Below are positions 52,566-54,838 of a stretch of DNA of 64,000 bases, piece after piece. The position numbers and the translations under genes are program-made. The DNA lies in contig JAJFIV010000033.1 in assembly GCA_021774625.1 (NCBI GenBank), positions 108,201 through 172,200 on the forward strand. The letters are read 5' to 3'. Source of the DNA: Alphaproteobacteria bacterium (lineage in GTDB: Bacteria; Pseudomonadota; Alphaproteobacteria; Sphingomonadales; JAKSBY01). Each line of letters begins with the position of its first letter. The stretch's first letter is position 1. The notes under the pieces are model-generated. The model saw nothing but the letters and a program-made list of their open reading frames with translations, was not told where the DNA came from and did no database searches.

Positions 52566-54077
52566 ATGTCCTACTCATCACTCCGTGATTTCATTGCCCA
52601 TCTGGAACGGGAGAATCTGCTGGTCCGGGTGACGGAGCCGGTGTCGTCTCATTTGGAAATGACGGAGATTCAGACCCGCGTGATTGCCGGGGGCGGCCCG
52701 GCCATTCTGTTCGAGAATGTGGAGAACGGGCAGGGTGAAAAATCTGATATGCCGGTGCTGGTCAATCTGTTCGGGACTGTCGAGCGGGTGGCTATGGGCA
52801 TGAACCGCAAGCCGGAAGATTTGCGCGCGCTTGGGGAAACGCTTGCTTTTCTGCGCCAGCCCGAGCCGCCCGGCGGCTGGAAGGAAGCGCTCGATCTGAT
52901 GCCCATTGCCCGGCAGGTCATGGCCATGTCGCCGAAAACAGTGAAAAAGGCGGCCTGTCAGGAAATTGTACTAACCGGCGATAAGATTGATCTTGGCCGG
53001 CTTCCGGTCCAGACCTGCTGGCCCGGCGAACCGGCCCCCCTGATCACCTGGCCGCTGGTGGTCACAAAGGGGCCGTCCGACAAACGCGAGGATGATTATA
53101 ATCTTGGCATTTACCGCATGCAGGTGACCGGGAAAAATAAAACCCTGATGCGTTGGCTTAAACATCGGGGCGGCGCCCAGCATCACGCCCGCTGGGGCAA
53201 TGAACGGCCGGAAGCTTTGCCCGCCGCCGTCGTGATCGGCGCTGATCCGGGAACGATTCTGGCGGCCGTCACGCCCGTGCCGGAAACTCTGTCAGAATAT
53301 AAATTCGCCGGGCTGCTGCGCGGGAAAAAGCTGGAGTTGACCGATTGCAGGACCGTGCCCCTGAAGGTGCCGGCGGCGGCGGAAATTGTGCTGGAAGGCC
53401 ATGTCTCGCTGGAAGACTATGGCGATGAAGGACCCTACGGCGATCACACCGGCTATTATAATTCTGTGGAATCCTTCCCTGTTTTCACCATTTCCGCCAT
53501 CACCATGCGCAGGGATCCCATTTACCTGTCCACATATACCGGCAGGCCGCCGGACGAGCCAAGCGTGCTGGGCGAGGCTTTGAATGATGTTTTCGTCCCC
53601 CTGATCACCCGGCAATTTCCGGAAATCACCGATTTCTGGCTGCCGCCCGAAGGCTGCTCCTACCGCATCGCCGTGGTGTCCATGAAGAAAGCCTACCCCG
53701 GCCACGCCAAGCGGGTGATGATGGCGGTATGGTCCTACCTGCGCCAGTTCATGTATACAAAATGGGTGATTGTGGTGGATGACGATATCAATGCCCGGGA
53801 CTGGAAGGACGTTATGTGGGCAATTTCCACCCGCATGGACCCGGCGCGGGATATCACCGTCATTGAAAACACACCAATCGATTATCTGGATTTTGCATCG
53901 CCTGAATCCGGCTTGGGGTCAAAAATCGGCCTCGACGCCACCAACAAATGGCCGCCGGAAACCGCCCGGGAATGGGGCCGGGAAATCCGCATGACCAGAG
54001 ACGTCATTGAAACCATCACAGAAAAATGGCCGCGCCTCGGGTTGCCTGGCGCTGGAAAGCCAATCTGGAAAGACTGA
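52566..54077 (+). CDS. ubiD: UbiD family decarboxylase (3-octaprenyl-4-hydroxybenzoate carboxy-lyase)
   Basis: [60 protein letters not shown]. Confidence 0.95.
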
Positions 54078-54118
54078 AAGCCTCACCAACGCACGGCACT
54101 TGGTCTGGACAGACCTTA

Positions 54119-54380
54119 GAGTCTTTTCTGATCAGGTTGACGCAATTTGATGGCTTGAGGTGGCTGTCCGGACAGGCACAGCCTGCAGTGCGATGCGGCG
54201 CATCGGTCAAAGGCCGTAACGCAGCCGGTCAGCCATCTCCGGTCACCGGAGGCCGGGTGCTTTTGTTCTGTGGCCCGCGTTGCCTTCCTTGGCCGATGCG
54301 CCGCATCGACCGGCGGAAGGCGCCTTGCCACAGAGCAAAATCCTTCCGATCAAATGGGTCAACCTAATCAGAAAAGACTC
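54119..54380. mobile_element. MITE-like element: ~262 bp, terminal inverted repeats, flanking TA
   Basis: Left TIR gagtcttttctgatcaggttgac...atttgat vs right atcaaat...gtcaacctaatcagaaaagactc (1 mismatch over 23 nt, then a few differences); TA at 54117-54118 and 54381-54382; nested internal inverted repeats; no coding capacity for transposase. Confidence 0.7.
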
Positions 54381-54838
54381 TAAGCCGCTGCTGGTGCTGC
54401 TATTTTCGTCAGTGAGGGCAGAACGGCATCCCAGCCCTCTTCACCAAAGGACTGCAGAAACTGCTTCTGGGCAATTCTCCAAAACGGAATAATTTCCCTT
54501 ACCGTCTGAATGCCCTGATCACTGATAGATACCAATTTCTGCCTCCCGGTCCCTGGCTTCATAACAATCAGGCCCTTGCCGCGTAACAGTTTCAATTTTC
54601 TGGACAGGGTAGATTTGTCCATGACCATCGCATCGGCGAACTGGCCAAGCGGCATGGGGCCACGGCGAGCCAGTTCCACCAGTATGACGGCCTGCGTCGA
54701 GCGCAACCCGGTGGGCTGCAAGGCCTCATCGAATTGACGCGTTACTGCCCGTGCTGCTTTGCGCAGATTAAAACAGGCGCACGAATCCGAAGCGAACTCA
54801 ACGCCCGCCCGCTCATTTTTGGATAAACGCGCATTCAC
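54380..54838 (-). CDS. MarR family transcriptional regulator
   Basis: VILVELARRGPMPLGQFADAMVMDKSTLSRKLKLLRGKGLIVMKPGTGRQKLVSISDQG. Confidence 0.92.
   Translation of the reverse strand: MNARLSKNERAGVEFASDSCACFNLRKAARAVTRQFDEALQPTGLRSTQAVILVELARRGPMPLGQFADAMVMDKSTLSRKLKLLRGKGLIVMKPGTGRQKLVSISDQGIQTVREIIPFWRIAQKQFLQSFGEEGWDAVLPSLTKIAAPAAA

Follow-up and report, generated by a model that had tools for sequence, protein, structure and literature searches.

A probable IS630-mobilized MITE that supplies the marR stop codon and carries a two-arm hairpin core found across Pseudomonadota

The ubiD–marR junction

The window analyzed here is a 64,000-nt stretch of an alphaproteobacterial contig (Sphingomonadales; JAJFIV010000033.1), in which a highly palindromic element lies between the convergent genes ubiD and marR. 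The features of this junction are as follows.

52566–54077, plus strand: ubiD, the convergent neighbor, with UbiD, UbiD_C and UbiD_N Pfam domains; it ends 39 bp before the element
54117–54382, plus strand (left-to-right orientation): the whole element, with the same boundaries as the 20 two-tip copies; the model R1 matches both arms
54117–54141, plus strand: left tip, TA + GAGTCTTTTCTGATCAGGTTGAC, from the own-genome tip search
54145–54264, plus strand: left hairpin arm with linker, the conserved structured core (R1, 117.5 bits, E = 9e-34, this arm being one of the seeds of R1; covariation)
54192–54204, no strand: left-arm apical palindrome gatgcggcgcatc, conserved in 14 of 14 aligned left arms, one with an insertion; this conservation partly reflects ascertainment, as the palindrome lies inside the 22-base search seed
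54231–54355, minus strand: right hairpin arm with linker, the inverted homologue of the left arm (R1, 71.3 bits, E = 2e-19; not a model seed)
54295–54307, no strand: right-arm apical palindrome gatgcgccgcatc, seen in the sequence
54358–54382, minus strand: right tip, the inverted copy TAGAGTCTTTTCTGATTAGGTTGAC, from the own-genome tip search and tip pairing
54380–54382, minus strand: present marR stop TAG, made of TA plus the last base of the element, at which a 172-codon open frame ends
54380–54838, minus strand: marR-family regulator gene with the element-supplied stop (PF01047, E = 9e-9)

The element is 266 bp in length, including the TA at each end. The original prediction had given its span as 54115–54384, which adds two flanking bases per side; the terminal inverted repeats, flanking TAs (54117–54118 and 54381–54382), internal palindromes and stop arrangement that it described are all present. 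Joining the flanks at a single TA yields ccTTAAgcc and a TAA stop for marR, and the gene now ends in TAG (54382–54380, minus strand), in agreement with the proposed swap of one stop codon for another. The arms 54115–54222 and 54277–54384 are 70% complementary over 108 nt. The element strand folds at -151.9 kcal/mol, whereas dinucleotide shuffles average -96.0 ± 5.0 (z = -11.3), and none of 200 shuffles folds as well. Only one ORF of at least 80 aa overlaps the element (54026–54367); it starts within ubiD, out of frame with that gene, and is attributable to chance. No transposase gene lies within the 266 bp, so that the element is short and non-coding, as is characteristic of a MITE.

Copies and a candidate transposase in the own genome

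A whole-genome DNA search with tip pairing identified approximately 41 copies in the own genome on many contigs, namely 20 two-tip copies (nine full length) and 21 solo tips, in addition to a few more degenerate solo tips. The tip search returned 54 sites at up to three mismatches, and the reversed control returned 0. The absence of other copies in the host genome, named at the outset as an argument against mobility, thus does not apply. Terminal inverted repeats, in the form of 25-bp inverted tips, are present in all 20 two-tip copies, including that of the window. Excluding the outermost T and A, nine of these copies measure 263–266 bp, seven 160–172 bp, and one each 120, 69, 47 and 28 bp, the 28-bp minimal copy being two tips and no more. 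Two subfamilies were distinguished by tip, CTGATYAGGTTGAC and CGGAATAGATTGAC, with one hybrid copy. A junction at GATGCGSCGCATC palindromes is common to three shortened copies, and two right-type ends occur in copies such as C7:79895 and C20:428206. Both features would follow from a switch of template between the inverted arms, which we infer may lie behind the copies with two right-type ends.

Every intact tip of the own genome contains GAGTC, a GANTC site that is CcrM-methylatable in alphaproteobacteria (e.g., 54117–54141). Control of the tips by CcrM (GANTC) was considered and dropped, GAGTC being missing from most tips of other hosts.

One clear IS630 transposase gene is present in the own genome (C27:55164–56225), with its HTH and DDE_3 parts in two frames and the reading frame broken at an A8 run. 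The ends of this IS630 match the element tips at 18 of 20 and 16 of 20 bases, the best among 16 host tip sets; TAGAG tips of other hosts match the same ends at 8–14 of 20. An autonomous element with matching tips is thus resident, its ends not identical and its frame interrupted. The search for an insertion sequence with the same terminal repeats therefore yielded a candidate partner with similar and not identical ends, in agreement with the IS630-type mobilization proposed initially. Judged by its ends, the resident IS630 is likely the partner of the element. The HTH and DDE frames overlap around the A8 run, a possible programmed frameshift (G000:C27:55164–56225; L092:1865–2925), and a perfect 26-bp inverted repeat surrounds the start of the first frame. 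In five further hosts (G604, G307, G486, G527 and G579), no IS630 locus examined carried the MITE tips of its own host, so the IS630–MITE tip pairing is known for the own genome only.

The two-arm core across hosts

Relatives identified by DNA search and with a 22-base core came from Emcibacter, Roseibium, Terasakiella and other alphaproteobacteria. Fourteen aligned left arms have a common structure in which 27 of 38 pairs are changed on both sides, and the left-arm covariation score was 0.620, compared with 0.193 ± 0.020 when shuffled and 0.10–0.11 when slid. R1 members were found in 33 of 338 sampled alphaproteobacterial genomes and in 18 of 399 genomes across Pseudomonadota (ten outside Alphaproteobacteria), a patchy distribution. 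The right arm is also matched by R1, on the opposite strand, in most elements. Because R1 matches both arms on opposite strands, the element is an inverted dimer of two homologous hairpin arms, the structure of which shows strong covariation. A search of a plasmid collection gave no match. Many draft contigs (G604, G301, G423, G545 and G610) end inside elements or within approximately 200 bp of them, and copy numbers in draft genomes are therefore probably too low. In one left arm (L143; G632:C11:125622–125787), the apical CCGATGCGGCGGCAT unit is repeated in tandem, resembling an expanded hairpin loop.

Ninety-eight elements had detectable tips; TA was present at both ends in 77, mostly of 263–272 bp. 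The tip classes included TAGAG, TATACCAA, TAGCCC, TAGCGCGC and TAGCACCC, sometimes two per genome. Members outside Alphaproteobacteria, in G711 and G750 (L289, L293, L304 and L305), have the tips TAGTGYCCTGYCCC. Identity between hosts was 71% for the apical core, which was the search seed and is thus partly ascertained, and 35% for the tips, which were not in the query; the two tips of a single element were 90% identical. By this comparison, core and tips are uncoupled between hosts.

A 1646-bp element in G355 likewise ends in the TAGCCC tips, and its protein matches PF13701 (E = 9e-156), which we take to be the IS1380-type transposase family. Compared with the ends of this element, TAGCCC MITE tips match at up to 17–19 of 20 bases and TAGAG tips at 5–12 of 20. 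With the own tips matching IS630, and those of some other hosts an IS1380-family element instead, one and the same core is thus joined to tips like those of two unrelated transposase families.

As a tentative explanation, an ancient inverted-dimer hairpin core may have spread through Pseudomonadota by acquiring new tips from unrelated transposase families, at least IS630 and IS1380; the conserved functional part would then be the core rather than the tips. The old dimer would have been joined to tip pairs suited to one transposase or another, and a switch of template from one inverted arm to the other would have copied each new tip to the opposite end, making the tips alike within an element. 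On the usual origin of most MITEs, the element would be an internal-deletion remnant of one IS, and the change of tips an ordinary joint divergence of tips and transposase, for which the TAGAG start common to many tip classes could be cited. This origin seems rather unlikely here, since the two-hairpin arms are absent from both the own IS630 and the G355 IS1380-family element, TAGCCC and TAGAG tips differ in their match to the latter, and several tip classes occur on the same core within one genome.

Orthologous ubiD–marR spacers

ubiD and marR are convergent neighbors in five relatives of the same taxonomic order (L127, L129, L130, L132 and L135). Four of these orthologous spacers, of 1, 5, 30 and 91 bp, are without the element, the 5-bp one being from the same family. 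The expectation of an empty site in relatives was thus borne out in part, as a base-exact empty TTAA site was not found among the orthologous spacers of the five relatives. In the fifth spacer (G014, 383 bp) lies a member of the family that has different tips, is oppositely oriented and sits away from the marR stop; these differences suggest that it was inserted independently. The alignments of several MarR homologues end only a few residues short of the C-terminus, so a shortening of marR caused by the insertion is unlikely. A MarR protein search of named genomes for close relatives found none.

Target site and stop codons

TA was present at both ends in 20 of 20 own two-tip copies. The target reads YTAR, with Y as the outside left base in 20 of 20 and R as the right base in 19 of 20 of these copies; in other hosts with TAG tips, the values were 62 of 64 and 63 of 64, respectively. 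Copies reading TTAG...CTAA imply that the 2-bp TA within TTAA was duplicated.

The joined site was a gene stop codon, defined as the terminus of a stop-free run of 100 codons or more and not of a curated gene, in 11 of 20 own two-tip copies compared with 28 of 163 (17%) non-intragenic YTAR sites of the same loci (p = 4.5e-4; the p values given here are guides, since copies within a host are related). Among all YTAR sites of the same loci, 28 of 524 were stop-codon ends. Such a stop was formed by 8 of the 21 solo tips of the own genome. In other hosts, 30 of 121 TAG tip sides formed a stop, compared with 7.8% of control sites (p = 1.1e-7). These results indicate that the stop-codon swap is general to the family and not peculiar to marR.

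The simplest reading of this enrichment is survival after harmless insertion. Since the tip reads TA-G, an element landing in the TA of either a TAA or a TAG stop would rebuild a TAG stop, and where convergent genes share the site, the stop would be rebuilt on both strands. Because TA and the G of the tip rebuild the stop, such insertions would be harmless and would survive. Tips serving as stops would be kept, and a tip turned gene stop could be retained while the remainder decays, leaving a solo tip. The transposase might instead directly target stop codons or a gene-end feature, as the strong enrichment might suggest and as YTAR, which always includes TAR, a stop in one frame, would allow. 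We consider such targeting improbable. Stop-destroying tips that read TAT or TAC coincided with a stop in 2 of 26 cases in other hosts, as survival predicts, although the numbers are small, and the independent G014 member lies in the same spacer and not at the marR stop.

Structured RNA or terminator

A one-strand structured RNA was suggested early by a G-U excess in the left arm alone. This idea was rejected because the two mismatch types are equally frequent in the element as a whole (51 G-T and 51 A-C) and their ratio flips from one arm to the other (21:4 and 5:12). An intrinsic terminator between ubiD and marR, of which the structure was originally described as capable, was likewise rejected, the terminator scan giving 1 site compared with 0.9 expected. 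A fixed structured RNA or bidirectional terminator common to both genes and held by selection would suit the very stable fold, the flanking convergent genes and the covariation-conserved structure, but is highly improbable in view of approximately 41 copies at unrelated loci, four orthologous spacers without the element, a missing T tract after the stem together with a terminator scan at chance, mismatch types that favor no single RNA strand, and no Rfam match up to E = 1.

Comparison with known repeat families

Like REP, BIME and REPIN sequences, the arms are inverted hairpin pairs scattered between genes; the present element differs in having a TA and an inverted tip at each end and a putative DDE-type partner. 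The CIR repeats of Caulobacter and Brucella were reportedly described by Chen and Shapiro in 2003. They share with the element an alphaproteobacterial host, an intergenic position, two inverted-repeat arms with a linker, TA ends and a GANTC site (PMC2229807). However, CIR is defined as approximately 110 bp without end-to-end inverted repeats and has GANTC in the loop, whereas the present element is 266 bp with end-to-end tips and has GAGTC in the tips; this comparison rests on the published description of CIR (PMC2229807). The Correia or NEMIS elements of Neisseria, also compared by description, resemble the element in TA ends, inverted tips of approximately 25 bp, and long and internally shortened forms, and differ in length (approximately 105–155 bp) and host class, with no tip exchange described (PMC2229807).

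RUP of Streptococcus pneumoniae is a 107-bp MITE attributed to IS630-Spn1 and reported from one genus (PMC2229807; PMC3049150). It is also short and non-coding, targets TA, has tips similar to those of an IS630 in its host and is enriched between convergent genes; it differs in length (107 vs. 266 bp), and these papers report no two-arm core common to hosts with different tips (PMC2229807; PMC3049150). Pneumococcal BOX repeats supply the stop of a neighboring gene without shortening it in 36 cases (PMC3049150), and so resemble the element in this respect. BOX is, however, modular with other tips, whereas the stop here consists of precisely the target TA and the first base of the tip. No report of the present element family was found in the open-licence papers searched.

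Nature and significance of the element

The dispersed copies, matched tips, TA ends in YTAR and lack of an internal transposase uphold the original description of a MITE-like element. From the sequence comparisons above, it is very likely a non-autonomous transposon (MITE), with proposed mobilization in trans by an IS630-type transposase, TA duplication, survival at stop codons and coupling of an old hairpin core to different tip pairs. An IS630-type transposase would bind the tips in trans, excise the element and insert it at a TA, which would be duplicated on insertion. Beyond the original prediction, the analysis adds a widespread two-arm core with changing tips and a general stop-codon rule.

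Ordinary MITEs keep the tips of the parent IS and leave the interior free, whereas here the interior is conserved over many bacterial families and the tips change. With changing tips on a conserved core, the switching of transposase families by a non-autonomous element becomes testable. The stop-codon rule, a TAG tip in a YTAR target, offers a simple, countable reason for the accumulation of such elements at gene ends and for the persistence of solo tips.
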